From NCBI GenBank assembly GCA_017437705.1, contig JAFRYJ010000018.1, positions 1 through 13,892 on the forward strand: 13,892 nucleotides of DNA, in the 5' to 3' direction. The DNA is from Lachnospiraceae bacterium. GTDB taxonomy: Bacteria > Bacillota_A > Clostridia > Lachnospirales > Lachnospiraceae. A program made the translations under genes and the position numbers. The notes under the pieces were generated by a model. The model saw only the letters and a list, made by a program, of their open reading frames with translations, did no database searches and was not told the DNA's origin. Positions 1,637 to 12,021 of this stretch are shown here, in pieces. Each line of letters opens with the position of its first letter. The first letter of the stretch is position 1.

Positions 1637-1672
1637 GACCCCGGCAGACAGTTTCTGCCGGGGTCGTTCTTT
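1637..1672 (+). terminator. Intrinsic terminator between convergent genes
   Basis: A 12-bp perfect stem has arms GACCCCGGCAGA (1637-1648) and TCTGCCGGGGTC (1654-1665), with a 5-nt loop. It is followed on the + strand by GTTCTTT. It ends the surface-protein transcript. The - strand side is moderately T-rich (TGTTATTGTCTTT), so the hairpin may also stop transcripts from the oppositely oriented microcompartment operon, whose last stop codon lies at 1680-1682. Confidence 0.85.
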
Positions 1673-1679
1673 GCATTTA

Positions 1680-2354
1680 TCATGATCCCTTTTTGTTTCT
1701 CGGATTCACTAAGGGCATTCCCTTTCTCCATTCCTTATGCTGCGTAAGGATACGGTCCTCTATTTCCATGGCCTTCTCCGGAGAGACTCCGTGGGATCTC
1801 TCTTCGGCGCCCTTGTATTCGATGGACATCTCCTCTTCAACGGTACGGACGTTGCGGGGACCGTCGTACCAGTCCCTCTGGCCGTACTGCTGACGACCCA
1901 TAGCCACGTCCACGTCGATTATCTCTACGGGCTCCTCCAGGTAATCAAGCAGCTCCTGGACTCCCTCGCCGGTAAAATTGTTGACCATGAAGATGGGCTC
2001 GCAGCCGGCGTCTATGAGCCACTGACGCACCATGGGCACGTTGGCGCCGGGGGCGTCTATCCTGGTGATGACCCCGATCATGGGGCGGGACATCATTCCC
2101 GCGATGCAGGGACCGGTCAGGTTGTAGGGCTCGTCTGCGGCACAGACCGTGGCAAGTATGTCTGCATCGTAGGAGAAGCAGCCCAGGGCGTGGGAGATCC
2201 TCTTGGACTCCGCATATTCGCCGGGGGTGTCTATGATATCCTCGTCCGTTTTGACGTACTGCGTTTTTACGTAATGTATGGGCTCGCCCTTAAGAGCCTG
2301 AGTGAGAGACGTCTTGCCGGCCTCGCTCCTGCCGGCCAGAAAAAGCTTTTTCAT
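1680..2354 (-). CDS. EutP/PduV-family microcompartment GTPase with long C-terminal tail (copy A)
   Basis: This is a 224-residue P-loop GTPase-like protein of the EutP/PduV family, which accompanies ethanolamine- and propanediol-type microcompartments. Visible motifs are G1 GRSEAGKT (8-15), G3 DTPGEY (42-47), a G4-like TRID (97-100, Thr instead of Asn of NKxD), and NNFTGEGV (125-132). The start MKKLFLAGRS matches the family N-terminus; the open frame extends further upstream but only overlaps the preceding gene in another frame. Start and upstream stop overlap as ATGA (2351-2354). The AAGGAG site is only 2 nt from the ATG, suggesting translational coupling. About 85 residues follow the GTPase core (140-224), rich in charged residues and ending NKKGS; the well-known EutP and PduV proteins are about 150-160 residues in total. 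Salmonella EutP has been reported as an acetate kinase and PduV as shell-associated; which role applies here is open. Confidence 0.88.
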   Translation of the reverse strand: MKKLFLAGRSEAGKTSLTQALKGEPIHYVKTQYVKTDEDIIDTPGEYAESKRISHALGCFSYDADILATVCAADEPYNLTGPCIAGMMSRPMIGVITRIDAPGANVPMVRQWLIDAGCEPIFMVNNFTGEGVQELLDYLEEPVEIIDVDVAMGRQQYGQRDWYDGPRNVRTVEEEMSIEYKGAEERSHGVSPEKAMEIEDRILTQHKEWRKGMPLVNPRNKKGS

Positions 2355-2893
2355 ATCTCCTTGTATTCCTCGATGGGGATCTTTGTCTCGTCCTTGGACC
2401 ATTCCAGGATCCCTCTGTTCTGTTTTGCTATGGCTTCTTCCAGCGTCATGGGCTCGACGGTCTGCTCCAGGTATTCCCGAAGCTCCTCCACGCCTTCGCC
2501 CGTTACATTGTTTATCTTGAATATCCTCTCGCAGCCCGACTGACGGAGCCATTGCTCCACCATGGGCACGTTCGCCAGGGGTGAATCAATTTTCGTAATG
2601 ATGCCGATCATGGGACGGGTGGCCCAGCCGATAACGCCGGGCTCGTGGAGGTTGTAGGGCTCGTCGGCCGCCACTACCTCGGCAAGCACGTCGGAATCAA
2701 AGGAGAAGCAGCCCAGGGCAAAATCGAATTTCTTGCTCTCGGTATACTCGCCGGGGGTGTCTATGGTTATATCCCAGGTCTTCGTATACTGGGTCTTTTC
2801 GTAGTGCAGCTCCTCGCCTTTAAGATTCTGCGTGAGCGTTGTCTTGCCGGTCTCGCTCCGGCCGTTCAGAAACATTTTTCTAAGTTCGCCCAT
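2351..2893 (-). CDS. EutP/PduV-family microcompartment GTPase (copy B)
   Basis: This 180-residue paralogue of the adjacent GTPase has G1 GRSETGKT (11-18), DTPGEY (45-50), TKID (100-103) and NNVTGEGV (128-135). The start is MGELRKMFLNGRS, with GGAG 6 nt upstream; an internal Met at residue 7 has no comparable ribosome site. The two GTPase genes still share long identical nucleotide stretches. One example is a 19-nt run at 2171-2189 and 2701-2719; another lies around 2121-2135 and 2651-2665. This indicates tandem duplication within the locus, possibly with gene conversion. The C-terminal tail (about 142-180) matches the first part of copy A's tail (Ala...Gln...Gly...Trp pattern) and then stops. 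The gene follows the shell genes after a 60-nt gap that holds an attenuator-like hairpin. Confidence 0.88.
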   Translation of the reverse strand: MGELRKMFLNGRSETGKTTLTQNLKGEELHYEKTQYTKTWDITIDTPGEYTESKKFDFALGCFSFDSDVLAEVVAADEPYNLHEPGVIGWATRPMIGIITKIDSPLANVPMVEQWLRQSGCERIFKINNVTGEGVEELREYLEQTVEPMTLEEAIAKQNRGILEWSKDETKIPIEEYKEI

Positions 2894-2920
2894 AGGATGC
2901 TCCTGCCTGTTAAAACCTGT

Positions 2921-2950
2921 GTCAAAAATGCTGCCGCTTAAAGCGGCAGC
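2921..2950 (-). terminator. Hairpin plus T-tract between shell genes and GTPase genes (probable partial terminator)
   Basis: On the - strand, 3 nt after the stop of the 158-residue shell protein, a near-perfect palindrome has arms GCTGCCGCTT and AAGCGGCAGC (2930-2950). As RNA this gives a stem of about 8 GC-rich base pairs and a 5-nt loop, followed directly by ATTTTTG (about 2923-2929). This has the form of a Rho-independent terminator inside a gene series that otherwise looks like one operon. No convincing promoter was seen between it and the next gene, so partial readthrough is the simplest reading. The + strand side lacks a T-tract. Confidence 0.7.
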
Positions 2951-2953
2951 CTG

Positions 2954-3430
2954 TTATCTCTGTGTTATGGGGCATACATCGTAATGCAGGTCCCAGCTGA
3001 AAAACCTTACGATGCCCTGCATGGCCGACTGGACATGGGGAAGCTCGCCGGTGATGATAAGGGATCCGCAGAACCTGTCCATGAAGCCTATGTCCACGTT
3101 GCCGTTTTTAACGGCCATGTCCGCCGCGATGACCACGGATTCCCAGGGGGTGAGCCTCATGATGCCGATGGCCCTGCCCGTGGGATCGTCCCCGGCGTGG
3201 AAGCCGATGTTGAGGGCCAGGTTCGTGTAGACGGGATCCGACGATACGCCGATTATATGGGCGATATCGATGGACTTTCCGGGTACTCGGACCCTGGTGA
3301 TCCTGGCCTTGTCGCCTCCGGTGGTCCGGGCGATCTCCTGCAGCATCTCGTTAAGCTCTTCCCTGTTGTTTATCCTTTTGCCCCTGTTGCGGCTCTGTCC
3401 CTCGACAAACTGATTCTGATCCAGATACAT
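2954..3430 (-). CDS. PduU/EutS-type BMC shell protein with N-terminal extension
   Basis: This 158-residue circularly permuted BMC-domain protein belongs to the PduU/EutS type. The family core runs from about residue 43 (RITRVRVPGKSIDIAHIIG) through AIGIMRLTPWESVVIAADMA (87-106) and DIGFMDRFCGSLIITGEL (113-130) to the C-terminal DVCPITQR. PduU/EutS proteins form hexameric tiles of microcompartment shells. Compared with the neighbouring 121-residue paralogue it has about 33 extra N-terminal residues. These include a predicted amphipathic helix at 22-37 (NREELNEMLQEIARTT; L26, M29, L30, I33 on one face) and a Gly/Asp-rich linker at 38-41. It also has a somewhat longer loop at about 77-86. The ribosome site AGAGGTG lies 5-6 nt before the ATG. 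It starts 12 nt after the upstream shell gene, so co-transcription is expected. Confidence 0.88.
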   Translation of the reverse strand: MYLDQNQFVEGQSRNRGKRINNREELNEMLQEIARTTGGDKARITRVRVPGKSIDIAHIIGVSSDPVYTNLALNIGFHAGDDPTGRAIGIMRLTPWESVVIAADMAVKNGNVDIGFMDRFCGSLIITGELPHVQSAMQGIVRFFSWDLHYDVCPITQR

Positions 3431-3442
3431 GGGGACACCTCT

Positions 3443-3808
3443 TTACCTTTTGGTGATAGGGCAGGTGACATACCCGAGGGTGCCTCCGAAGTAATCCACT
3501 ATCTCCTGGATAGAGGATTCAACTTCCGAGATCTCCCCGGTGATGATGAGGGTGCCGCTGAAACGGTCCGCAAAGCCCAGATAAACATTGCCGCTCTTTA
3601 CGGCAATATCCGATGCAATGACAGCAGACTCCGGCGGCGTCATATTCATGATGCCGATAGCCGAAGTATGGTAATCTATCTGCGGATTAAGGCCCAGCTT
3701 CTGATATACGATGGGCATGGGACCGCCGATGACATGGGCAAGGGTAATCTCCTTGCCTGCAACGGTCTCCTGCACTATTCGAAACTGGTTGCGGTTCTGC
3801 TCTTGCAT
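3443..3808 (-). CDS. PduU/EutS-type BMC shell protein
   Basis: This 121-residue BMC-domain protein is close to the usual EutS/PduU length. Family features run in order: FRIVQETVAGKEITLAHVIG (9-28), SAIGIMNMTPPESAVIASDI (49-68), YLGFADRFSGTLIITGEI (76-93) and the C-terminal VTCPITKR. It should form a hexameric shell tile. It is the first gene of the microcompartment operon, about 55 nt downstream of a good promoter. Its ribosome site is weak (CAGGT, 6 nt from the ATG). No pentameric vertex protein, ordinary BMC-H tile or enzyme lies nearby, so this tile presumably joins a shell whose other parts are encoded elsewhere. I cannot tell from sequence whether it is nearer EutS or PduU. Confidence 0.9.
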   Translation of the reverse strand: MQEQNRNQFRIVQETVAGKEITLAHVIGGPMPIVYQKLGLNPQIDYHTSAIGIMNMTPPESAVIASDIAVKSGNVYLGFADRFSGTLIITGEISEVESSIQEIVDYFGGTLGYVTCPITKR

Positions 3809-3862
3809 CGTTTTACCTGCTTCAATGAAAGATAAAGTATCATCCGAGAATACTACGAGCCT

Positions 3863-3891
3863 ATTGTAGCATCAAAAGCTTTTAACGTAAA
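3863..3891 (-). promoter_or_regulatory. Probable sigma-70 promoter of the microcompartment operon
   Basis: On the - strand there is a -35 element TTTACG (3886-3891), a 17-nt spacer, and a -10 element TACAAT (3863-3868) preceded by TGC, an extended -10. The predicted start of transcription is near 3856, leaving a leader of about 50 nt before the first shell gene. No catabolite-type or two-component operator was recognised in the leader. Confidence 0.6.
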
Positions 3892-3920: not shown

Positions 3921-4406
3921 CTATTTCTTCTTTTTCCTTAACTTGCCAAAGATGCCGTGTACGGCCTCCCTGCCCGCCTCAACGGGAGAATAGGGCAGGT
4001 CATCGACGCCCAGTTCCTTTTCCAGCTTGTGGGCGGCGGCGTATTCGGCCTGGCGCGCCGCTGTGCCGGCCTCCCTCTGAAGAGCCTTTCTTGCGGAATA
4101 TCCCTCCATTTTCAGGATGTCCTTTCCGGAGAATGCGTGGGGATCGAAGGGGGGAAGATCCGAAGCGGCCTTTTTAAGGGCGTTCATATCGGGAGTGAGG
4201 CTCGTGAAAAGCTCTGAAAATCTGGTCTCCATGCCCGCCGCAGCGAAATCCTGATAGAATGTTCCCGCATCATCATACTGCTCGCCCATCTCGCAGGCGT
4301 CGGCAAAATACGCATCTACTTTGGGCTTTGCTTCGTCTGAAATGATGTAATACTGGTTTATAAAGTTCCATTTCTGCTCAATGATATCCTGGACCTGTTT
4401 GTTCAT
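3921..4406 (-). CDS. Unrecognised soluble protein, Lys-rich C-terminus
   Basis: This is a 161-residue protein I do not recognise. It has no signal peptide and no membrane segment. It appears largely helical and is rich in Ala, Tyr, Glu and Lys. A likely long helix at about 103-135 (SARKALQREAGTAARQAEYA and beyond) is followed by a short PYSPVEAGREA segment and a basic tail GKLRKKKK. The ribosome site is excellent (AAGGAGGT, 7 nt from the ATG). The gene starts 23 nt after the stop of the upstream membrane protein, so the two are almost certainly co-transcribed. A T-rich stretch without a strong hairpin follows the stop codon, and the promoter of the microcompartment operon lies just beyond. 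A role with the membrane protein is the simplest guess from context; no function can be assigned from sequence. Confidence 0.8.
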   Translation of the reverse strand: MNKQVQDIIEQKWNFINQYYIISDEAKPKVDAYFADACEMGEQYDDAGTFYQDFAAAGMETRFSELFTSLTPDMNALKKAASDLPPFDPHAFSGKDILKMEGYSARKALQREAGTAARQAEYAAAHKLEKELGVDDLPYSPVEAGREAVHGIFGKLRKKKK

Positions 4407-4429
4407 GATGCTACCTCCTTGGATGAACG

Positions 4430-6286
4430 TTACTGAACCGGACCGGTTTCTGTTTCGGGCGGCGGAGTGCCGCTTTCGGGTGTCGGGGCGTCACTTTCTT
4501 CCCCGGGGCGGGTCGCGATAACGCCCGGTCCCATGTTCGGATGTGATGATGAATAGATCTCGTCTGCTATGAAAAATCCCGAAAGGACTATGAGTATCGG
4601 TATAAGTATGAACTTTGATATCCTGCGGACCCCGTTGTCGATGAGAGGTGAAATGAAATAGACGAAGGCCGTGCAGCCGATGCCGAAGATCAGCAGACCC
4701 TCGGCGCAGATGCGGCCGTTAAGGTTGACAAAGTAACCGGTGTAATCCCACCATCGCTCGCCGGTCTTCATCTCGATTATCACCGATGAATAATACTCCA
4801 TGGTCCCGCAGGCTATGAGGGAGGCCAGGATAAAAAGCGGCGGCCTCCGCCTTAAACGGAAGAACAGCAGGATGACCAGCACGGCTCCGGATCCGTATAT
4901 GGGAAGCCACGGGCCGTGAAGGAAGCCTCTGTTTACCCAGGTCCCCACGGTGATGTAATGCAGCAGTACCTCCCAGCCCCAGCCGACCATGGAGTAGATA
5001 AAGAACTGGGTCAGCATGGATGCGACGGAATAATGGCGCATGTAGGAGAAACGGCCCTGCCTTTCCGGAAACCGGTTTCTGAAGGAATTGAGCCTCATGG
5101 GGAAGGCCTGGCCGGCGAGGATGTCCTCATAGGCCGATAACCTTGCGGAGGCTGAGATATATTCACGATATTGCCGGTCTCTTTCATTATACCTGAGCAC
5201 CAGTCCCAGATTATTTTCGAAAAATCCGGCGATGCCGGTTCGGGGCACGGGCTCGGGAGGAAGATCCCTTTTACGGCTCTCAATGTCGTTGTAGGTCTCC
5301 GCTATGAGGTCCTGATCCGCGTGCTCGAAAAGGTATTTATTGGAGAGAACGGACGCGGCACCGGGATCTTTTTCAAGATATACCTCCCTTATTTTTTTAT
5401 AGTAAAAGCCCAGTGTGGCTTCCTTGTAGGGGTTTGAGAAGAAAAGGCCCGACAGGCCTGCCGTCAGGATACTGAGTATCGCCCAGCCCAGGAAGGTGAG
5501 GTCAAGCCTGAAGCATTCAAGCTTGTGGCCGTCCATCATTTTTCTGGATATGAGTATGGCCTCCGACGGCTTTACCTCCGGGTTTTCCGCGACTATGTAG
5601 GGCACCGCAAAATATGAATACGACTTTATGAAGCCGCCGATTATCGTAAGGAACCACAGCGTATGCCGCAGGGACGTAAGGGCCAGCGTCATGGCCGCCC
5701 TCAGCCAGTGACCGCTCTGTATCAGAAAGCCGAACCGGTGGAAGGGCACCTTGTCGTAGGTGCCGCCCTCGATGAATATCCTCTTCATGATGGCCTTAAA
5801 GACATTCGATATGAATATCCAGAAGGCCAGGATCAGCAGGGTGAACAGGATGAAGATCATGATGGCTTCAAGCTCCGGATCCTTTATGATCCTGTTTATA
5901 AGGGAAAAGATCTGAATGACGTATGTGCCCGAATAGATATCGGATATGACCTGGGCCATGACGCCGTCCTTGTAGGCGATCTCCAGGTCGCCTATCTTTC
6001 CGCCCGAGGGACGGGAGGGATTGAATTTCTCGGCGAAATAATCCAGCACGCTGCCGTCGTGCTCTGCGATATCGTTGAACAGCTCTTCCAGGCCGGTGAG
6101 GGGCGCCTCCGTGCCCTTTTCCGCCAGGGACACCACGGAGGTCCTGTTTGAGAGCCTTGCGAAGATAAGTGATGATGAATAATCGGTAAAGAAGAACGCA
6201 GCAAACAGACATGTCAGCATGAACATGAAATAATGCTTCGACAGGCTCCTGACGGCCTGCTTTTTTAACTCCGAAAACTTCATCAT
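4430..6286 (-). CDS. DUF975 / CmpB-like (putative ABC transporter type IV family) fused membrane protein
   Basis: This is a 618-residue polytopic membrane protein made of two families. Residues 1-300 fit DUF975: an N-terminal SELKKQA segment, a first membrane helix at about 19-34, then FAVPYIVAENPEVKPSEAI (226-244), MDGHKLECFRLDLTFLGW (251-268) and PYKEATLGFYY (286-296). Residues about 425-550 fit the CmpB-like family Pfam calls a putative ABC-transporter type IV: YSMVGWGWEV, NRGFLHGPWLPIYGSG (452-467), RWWDYTGYFVNLNGRICAEG (511-530). About nine membrane helices are visible (near 19, 141, 200, 262, 424, 461, 484, 526 and 557). A charged linker of about 120 residues joins the halves. The tail (583-618) is acidic and Pro/Thr-rich. 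There are two adjacent ATG codons; weak GGTGA spacing favours the second (6281-6283). Substrate and function are unknown. Confidence 0.85.
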   Translation of the reverse strand: MMKFSELKKQAVRSLSKHYFMFMLTCLFAAFFFTDYSSSLIFARLSNRTSVVSLAEKGTEAPLTGLEELFNDIAEHDGSVLDYFAEKFNPSRPSGGKIGDLEIAYKDGVMAQVISDIYSGTYVIQIFSLINRIIKDPELEAIMIFILFTLLILAFWIFISNVFKAIMKRIFIEGGTYDKVPFHRFGFLIQSGHWLRAAMTLALTSLRHTLWFLTIIGGFIKSYSYFAVPYIVAENPEVKPSEAILISRKMMDGHKLECFRLDLTFLGWAILSILTAGLSGLFFSNPYKEATLGFYYKKIREVYLEKDPGAASVLSNKYLFEHADQDLIAETYNDIESRKRDLPPEPVPRTGIAGFFENNLGLVLRYNERDRQYREYISASARLSAYEDILAGQAFPMRLNSFRNRFPERQGRFSYMRHYSVASMLTQFFIYSMVGWGWEVLLHYITVGTWVNRGFLHGPWLPIYGSGAVLVILLFFRLRRRPPLFILASLIACGTMEYYSSVIIEMKTGERWWDYTGYFVNLNGRICAEGLLIFGIGCTAFVYFISPLIDNGVRRISKFILIPILIVLSGFFIADEIYSSSHPNMGPGVIATRPGEESDAPTPESGTPPPETETGPVQ

Positions 6287-11427: not shown

Positions 11428-12021
11428 ATGGTTTTGCGAAAAATAATGATCTGCCTTATGGCCGGTCTTTTCGTGTTCTCTTCAGGCTGTAAAAAGGACG
11501 CCGGAAGCTACGATCAGAACGCGGTCGTCCTCTCGGACGACGGCTCCATCGATGAGAAATGCGTGCTGGAGCTGGGAGAGTACGGAGACACGGAAAAGGT
11601 GTATGCTTTCATAGCTGAGAGCCTTAAGGAGATAAACGCCGGCATCACGGAGGAAAAGGATCTTCCGGTAACGGCGGAAAAGGCCGAGAGGACGGAGAAC
11701 ACCGTATCGGTGGTGCTTAAGTACAAGGCTCCGGAATACTATGAAAGACTTAACAATATAACATTTAAGGTGCTGGAGTTCAGCGGCGACGCGCTGACGG
11801 AGGCGGCCGGAGACCTGGAGCTGAAGACCAGGGACGGCAGGACCTTCGGCATATCGGAGATCGAATCTCCGGAGGACTGCCGCATCGTGGTATTCGCTCC
11901 CGAGAGCGAATACATATTAAAGACTCCCGGAGATATCGCCGCATACAGCGGCAACGCGGTGCTCCTGGAGGATGACGAAGCGTTAATAAACGGTTATTCC
12001 GTTATTATATATGAAAATTGA
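11428..12021 (+). CDS. Predicted lipoprotein of unknown function
   Basis: This is a 197-residue protein I do not recognise. The N-terminus looks like a lipoprotein signal: basic MVLRK, a hydrophobic stretch [12 protein letters not shown], then FSSGC with Cys21 as the likely lipidated residue. The -3 position is Ser rather than Leu, so the lipobox is not canonical. The mature part is acidic, without repeats or Cys clusters, and appears mixed alpha/beta. It is probably anchored to the outer face of the membrane. The start is supported by AAAGG/AAGGAT 7 nt upstream. Its end lies 25 nt before the chosen start of glycyl-tRNA synthetase. Lipoprotein genes are not part of the B. subtilis era-recO-gly cluster, so it looks like a lineage-specific insertion. 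Confidence 0.85.
11983..12011 (+). promoter_or_regulatory. Possible weak promoter for glycyl-tRNA synthetase inside the lipoprotein gene end
   Basis: TTAATA (11983-11988), a 17-nt spacer and TATATA (12006-12011) each match four of six consensus bases. The stretch also contains a small inverted repeat, AACGG-TTATT-CCGTT. If active, the leader would be only about 30 nt, too short for a T-box. The match could be chance in an AT-rich gene end. Confidence 0.25.

Follow-up and report, generated by a model that had tools for sequence, protein, structure and literature searches.

The window studied here, the whole of contig JAFRYJ010000018.1 (13,892 nucleotides) from the Lachnospiraceae bacterium assembly GCA_017437705.1, contains a block of four co-oriented genes (3808-1680, minus strand) that encode two bacterial microcompartment (BMC) shell proteins, tile A and tile B, followed by two GTPases of the EutP/PduV family, GTPase B and GTPase A (Table 1). 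An initial annotation had placed here four consecutive genes for two PduU/EutS-type tiles and two EutP/PduV GTPases, in the order short tile, long tile, shorter-tailed GTPase, and longer-tailed GTPase; the open reading frames (ORFs) and their Pfam matches confirm both the content and the order. Tile A and tile B are separated by 12 bases, tile B and GTPase B are separated by 60 bases, and the two GTPase genes overlap by 4 bases, the start codon of GTPase A lying within the stop codon of GTPase B. The mechanical ORF start of GTPase A at 2552 is too early, because L001, the locus of the closest relative, shares the internal start and the overlap.

Table 1. Features of the four-gene block and the sequence signals around it.
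Feature	Position	Strand	Size	Basis
Tile A: PduU/EutS-type permuted BMC-H shell protein	3443..3808	-	121 aa	PF00936, structures, clade
Tile B: second permuted BMC-H, ~35 extra N-terminal residues	2954..3430	-	158 aa	PF00936, structures, model, clade
GTPase B: EutP/PduV family	2351..2893	-	180 aa	PF10662, pairs with L001 GTPase B
GTPase A: EutP/PduV family, long fast-evolving C-terminal tail	1680..2354	-	224 aa	PF10662, L001/P0125 pairing
Terminator-like hairpin between tile B and GTPase B	2930..2950	-		Consensus scan
Promoter-like site TTTACG-17-TACAAT, TG before second hexamer, upstream of tile A	3863..3891	-		Consensus scan, weak
Terminator-like hairpin, 12 pairs, after GTPase A; plus-strand gene may also read it	1637..1665	-		Consensus scan

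Both tiles match the BMC domain PF00936 (47.0 bits for tile A and 44.1 bits for tile B; Pfam cut-off, 24.5), and both GTPases match PduV-EutP PF10662 (145.4 bits for GTPase A and 140.2 bits for GTPase B; cut-off, 21). The size of the latter scores matters, because a cut-off of 21 also admits Era (25.2 bits). With the curated NCBIfam models the tiles reach 91.8 and 71.6 bits for EutS (cut-off, 123) and the GTPases reach 123.9 and 115.9 bits for TIGR02528 (EutP/PduV; cut-off, 138.35), and because these scores fall short we regard the four proteins as diverged branches, the tiles not being EutS proper. An ordinary eut or pdu operon would hold a signature enzyme and a BMC-P gene; among the 16 window ORFs (9 + 7) scanned with Pfam, no BMC-P and no microcompartment enzyme was found.

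The solved structures nearest to tile A are CutR, EutS, and PduU, with residues 9-120 aligned over the permuted domain, and the nearest to tile B is the EutS of Clostridioides difficile, with residues 42-157 or 39-156 aligned. A predicted model of tile B (pLDDT, 73.5) led a structure search first to 4axi, 6xpj, and 3cgi (EutS, CutR, and PduU); it has an extra helix at residues 23-36, and in this monomer prediction the N-terminal strand region is of low confidence, with residues 46-49 under 50. The AlphaFold model of GTPase A was poor (pLDDT, 54.2) and was not used. The two GTPases of the window are 56% identical to each other, and what we take to be the P-loop and DTPGEY-type motifs are conserved across 19 aligned GTPases, several of which read DSPGEY.

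The cassette in related genomes

Species-representative genomes were scanned with an alignment of tile B, which yielded 258 stretches, 224 of them confirmed. The best 80 loci, which we analyzed, lie in 79 genomes (L005 and L007 share one), many of which are fragmentary bins. The order tile A, tile B, and one GTPase was found at 77 of the 80 loci, 76 by script together with L037, where tile A is hidden by an early tile B start. The exceptions are L005, which begins at a contig end inside the block; L003, the only locus of the 80 at which no GTPase adjoins the tiles; and L001, the only one with two tandem GTPases, a count to be read with the caution that several contigs end shortly past the GTPase (L074 within it), so that a second GTPase could be missed there. 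Because 77 of the 80 loci have two tiles and one GTPase, a pair of tiles is the normal state, and a second GTPase is a duplication confined to one lineage. The claim that tile and GTPase were doubled together is therefore not supported, and two matched tile-GTPase pairs as the ancestral unit can be rejected on the same count.

L001, from the uncultured Clostridiales bin RUG14319, is the closest relative among the best 80 of the 224 loci, with identities of 95% for tile A, 78% for tile B, 84% for GTPase B, and 71% for GTPase A. Compared with L001, all four genes of the block are under purifying selection (pN, 0.04-0.18; pS, 0.63-0.82), and the tail of GTPase A drifts fast, with a pN of 0.35 vs 0.10 in the G domain. 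The database proteins P0005 (a tile B) and P0125 (a GTPase A) presumably lie on one contig.

In a tree of 199 of 234 tiles (short and identical sequences were dropped, few columns were available, and the labels A, B, and other were assigned by score), the tile A proteins of the cassette (73 rows; SH-aLRT, 89), its tile B proteins (86 rows; SH-aLRT, 98), and 40 other EutS/PduU-type tiles are separated from one another. The two cassette clades join at 99, apart from the 40 others; read most simply, the tile was duplicated once, at the base of the cassette. Some database proteins are longer (240-276 aa): P0011 to P0014 look like a tile A joined to a tile B in that order, P0015 like a shortened tile A with a tile B, and P0010 like overlapping repeats of one tile; these are possibly frame errors, assembly faults, or true fusions.

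The 129 rows of the GTPase tree stand for P0125 and for 128 of 141 ORFs, and the bootstrap values of this tree had not converged. The GTPases of the cassette form one clade of 89 of the 129 rows (99/100), apart from the EutP/PduV proteins of main loci, by which we mean the loci that encode the BMC-P vertex protein. GTPase A of the window pairs with the L001 GTPase A and P0125, and GTPase B pairs with the L001 GTPase B; since each groups with its own L001 orthologue, the duplication predates the split between the window and L001. The second GTPase of the window lineage is a duplicated, partly diverged copy that stems from an old duplication confined to that lineage. Copies that stand alone in genomes G011 and G012 may be related to GTPase B (81/82, not starred). 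In these two genomes cassette-type GTPases stand away from tiles, as a tandem pair in G012 (L108:6127-7184) and as a single extra copy in G011 (L194:6513-7001); the tile pair of G012 is that of L003.

No further conserved neighbor gene emerged: apart from the tiles, the GTPases, and their antisense frames, no ORF cluster lies near more than 13 of 81 cassettes, and the most frequent other cluster, at 13 of 81, consists of other BMC-domain genes. One cassette was found in an actinobacterial genome (L037 / L096; G006, titled Olsenella phocaeensis), about 8 kb from a BMC-P gene beside CutC-like genes, which suggests transfer between phyla. The bin G014 seems to hold duplicated contigs, because its contigs C6, C12, and C26 give repeated BMC and EutP/PduV matches with identical scores.

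Main loci in genomes that carry the cassette

Shell genes besides the cassette are present in all 79 of the relatives' genomes, and BMC-P (PF03319) is present in 74 of them (30/30 and 45/50 in two sets, with G014 in both). The five genomes in which BMC-P was not found (G033, G058, G073, G074, and G078) are probably incomplete bins, because each has PF00936 genes besides the cassette tiles. An orphan module that belongs to no compartment is thus rejected in the relatives, and the early suggestion of a stand-alone module acting for a compartment encoded elsewhere gains support. As background, a sample of 150 genomes from the family to which G002 belongs contained 39 with BMC-P. In the same sample 7 of 150 genomes have a true tile B (E < 1e-60), all 7 with BMC-P, a co-occurrence with a chance probability of 5e-5, or 2e-4 without the seed genome, both uncorrected for kinship. 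Two EutS/PduU-type tiles, G090:C49:5691-6026 and G121:C204:3356-3712 (L124), with scores of 116 and 128 bits, were seen in two genomes of this family sample in which BMC-P was not found, and in G121 the tile is followed by a PduV-type GTPase.

In G002, G005, and G024 the cassette and BMC-P are separated by about 97, 102, and 39 kb, respectively, and in at least six relatives (G006, G013, G014, G060, G071, and G077) the cassette lies 8-10 kb from the BMC-P of the main locus. The description of the block as two tile/GTPase pairs and nothing else is accordingly correct for the window and its 16 ORFs and does not extend to those relatives, where a main locus lies within about 10 kb. Among the matches listed, 48 of the 79 genomes have one EutP/PduV (18 of 30 at E < 1e-29 and 30 of 49 at E 1e-15), and this sole copy must be that of the cassette, because their cassettes carry one.

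The stretches around BMC-P from the 74 genomes were typed by BLAST identity to reference proteins, with labels such as GRM5 and EUT as used in the literature or customarily; an NCBIfam scan covered ten proteins of five main loci and tested CutC for L097 and L103 only. On this basis 43 main loci are GRM5-like (42 by class II aldolase and 1 by glycyl radical enzyme), 9 CutC-like, and 7 ethanolamine-type (5 by EutA/B/C and 2 by EutE alone), while 4 are of unassigned class and 11 are unresolved. In a tree restricted to typed genomes, with 69 cassette GTPases, the main type changes 6 times by parsimony, a raw count uncontrolled for chance, though in the 129-row GTPase tree most CutC-type genomes group together.

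For G001, the genome of L001, EutS, EutP, and EutA were found at one contig end, and BMC-P, a PduS-like protein, and BMC-T on another contig; the stretches retrieved did not include EutB/C. By analogy with G001, the window's organism probably has an ethanolamine (eut) compartment. After the shell genes of G001 (L087:7325-9899), look-alikes of deoxyribose-phosphate aldolase, nucleoside phosphorylases, and cytidine deaminase were noted, judged by eye from their N termini.

A probable satellite operon and its possible role

The cassette is most likely a satellite, because other shell genes accompany it in every relative's genome, its proteins form separate clades, the main loci are of several types, and in 48 of the 79 genomes it holds the sole EutP/PduV found. 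That it is a separately placed operon serving a compartment encoded elsewhere we consider very probable. By the wording of Axen et al. (2014), a satellite contains PF00936 or PF03319 and not both, and the window contains only PF00936; the shell genes of a satellite should be contiguous, as tile A and tile B are; and no other common BMC-associated gene should adjoin them. Since the two PF10662 genes do adjoin the tiles, the block is "satellite-like" in that wording.

The operon would supply two paralogous barrel-bearing tiles and an EutP/PduV GTPase to a shell made at the main locus, where the vertex protein, the ordinary tiles, and the enzymes would be encoded. Tiles A and B may enter the facets of the main shell as minor components, with their N-terminal barrels toward the cytosol, and the GTPase may be recruited by these barrels and dock from outside, as proposed for PduV on PduU; its nucleotide cycle would then tune positioning, partition, or assembly. 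Contact between PduU and PduV has been reported by two-hybrid assay, and docking sets PduV against the barrel of PduU, on the outside of the shell (PMC4315436). Taken as a whole, with docking and positioning included, this explanation is the one we favor and appears reasonably probable; the docking and positioning part by itself is more tentative and somewhat doubtful.

The distances among single GTPases track those of tile B (partial r, 0.68) more than those of tile A (0.20), in a comparison of 83 rows that counts L018 twice (again as L119) and G014 twice and leaves out the window and L001. This is a hint only, because tile A varies less and species history is uncontrolled; the idea that each GTPase serves its own tile is not supported. 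A broader proposal, which we hold to be rather unlikely in its full extent, is that the cassette is a compartment-independent accessory, a long-kept tile pair and GTPase that fits whichever shell the cell makes (ethanolamine, choline, or fucose/rhamnose) and offers every shell type the same means of positioning or partition, the GTPase having tile B as its main partner.

Several observations weigh against a satellite that docks its GTPase on the main shell. The cassette is not needed for a compartment, because 32 of the 39 BMC-P-bearing genomes of the family sample have no tile B, and 25 of 74 main loci show a tile or GTPase of their own of the EutS/PduU or EutP/PduV kind. The main locus of the window's organism itself was not seen, its placement elsewhere being judged from the relatives' genomes. 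EutS is reported to be dispensable in Salmonella, where an eutP deletion grows like the wild type and an EutP fusion looked cytosolic and not on compartments (PMC12487888). The detached pduU clusters of Acetobacterium woodii are described as expressed 20- to 30-fold below the main cluster and as unimportant on the substrates tested (PMC7593272).

The strongest competing explanation, which we think unlikely but serious, is a permeability module, in which the tiles alter the pores of the shell under certain conditions, alone or as mixed hexamers, and EutP/PduV is minor or acts as an acyl-phosphate (acetate/propionate) kinase. Satellite shell genes have been proposed to tune permeability in general (PMC8217296), a role as acetate kinase has been suggested for EutP (cited in PMC12487888 and PMC7593272), BMC-H paralogues of Klebsiella are documented to form hetero-hexamers (PMC12058022), and what stays constant in the cassette is its pair of tiles (77/80 loci). 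Against a permeability module stand the place of the GTPase beside the tiles in 79 of 80 loci, GTPase distances that follow tile B, the conservation of the P-loop and DTPGEY-type motifs in the 19 aligned GTPases, and the presence of the cassette with compartments of different substrates.

Improbable by our estimate is that the block has left microcompartments for another role in the cell and co-occurs with them by shared ancestry alone. The wide spacing from the main locus in G002 and G005 (~97-102 kb) and the free-standing satellite-type GTPases of G011 and G012 would fit such a departure; other shell genes in 79 of 79 block-bearing genomes, vs BMC-P in 39 of 150 genomes of the family sample, argue against it. 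An assembly artifact or a fragment of an ordinary eut or pdu operon, to which the short contig of 13,892 bases might point, is almost certainly not the explanation, as the four genes, their overlap, and the upstream DUF975 gene are all repeated in the independent genome of L001, the flanks are housekeeping genes, the two GTPases share only 56% identity and pair separately with their L001 orthologues, and proteins of main loci form clades that do not include those of the cassette. Misassembly is thus rejected by the GTPase tree and the shared gene arrangement, and the doubled GTPase is no assembly error.

The satellite interpretation has precedents. The nearest published one is A. woodii, where a PduU-type tile likewise adjoins an EutP/PduV GTPase (cluster 2, pduU-pduV2) at a distance from the main pdu locus, which has neither, and where cluster 3 is a second detached pduU cluster; as described, each cluster has one tile where the cassette has two adjacent paralogues, and they come from one organism with one main-locus type (PMC7593272). 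The pduU-pduV and eutS-eutP pairs of main operons belong to the same two families, with the tile gene ahead of the GTPase gene (e.g., L109 and L112); the cassette differs in its separate clades, its doubled tile, and its usual distance from the main locus. Catalogued satellite loci are shell genes without BMC-P whose main locus lies elsewhere, as is the case for the cassette in the relatives' genomes, and the accessible part of the catalogue describes no two-tile and GTPase cassette across several BMC types (PMC8217296). PduV/EutP has been recorded near 57% of satellite-like loci (Axen et al., PMC4207490). The satellite ccmK3/ccmK4 pair of beta-carboxysomes also consists of two paralogous tiles away from the main locus (PMC5853843, PMC8217296). 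Its tiles, in contrast, are carboxysome tiles. To our knowledge this pair has neither a GTPase nor a permutation.

A literature search found no paper on the two-tile cassette, and did not cover the supplementary tables of the catalogues from 2014 and 2021, which might list it. What looks new is the form with two tiles and the fact that it accompanies several compartment types, while the detached pduU-pduV pair has already been published for A. woodii. Few parts of microcompartments are understood as poorly as the PduU/EutS tiles and the PduV/EutP GTPases, and single deletions of such parts in Salmonella are reported to show little (PMC12487888). Because the tiles and the GTPase stand apart as an operon that holds the sole EutP/PduV found in 48 of the 79 genomes, deleting or tagging them could leave the enzymes intact. 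The attachment of the cassette to several compartment types argues for a general role over one tied to a substrate.

Transcription signals and flanking sequence

Among 80 cassettes, a script found a terminator-like hairpin ahead of the GTPase in only 3, those of the window, L001, and L002, and a terminator between tile B and the GTPase is therefore rejected as a general rule. In the window, the hairpin possibly lowers expression of the GTPases, which would suit a need for many tiles and few GTPases. The promoter consensus scan returned 5 sites vs 2.4 expected, little over chance.

The 12 ORFs outside the block include an M16C peptidase, Era, RecO, a class II tRNA synthetase, the start of PPDK, DUF975/CmpB, and DUF4214 proteins, and a tRNA-Arg is also among these ordinary flanking genes; the ORFs at 3921-4406 and 11428-12021 and three antisense ORFs have no Pfam match. 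Two minus-strand genes lie upstream of the operon (3921-6286). One is a 161-aa ORF to which Pfam gave no match; the other encodes a DUF975/CmpB membrane protein, a homologue of which (52%) occupies the equivalent place in L001. A partial protein at 2-1609, with two DUF4214 stretches, a Listeria-Bacteroides repeat, and Big_2, faces the operon across the hairpin at 1637-1665. Long open frames of 268 and 283 aa without a Pfam match (1737-2543 and 2984-3835, plus strand) run antisense to the operon and are probably a by-product of codon usage.

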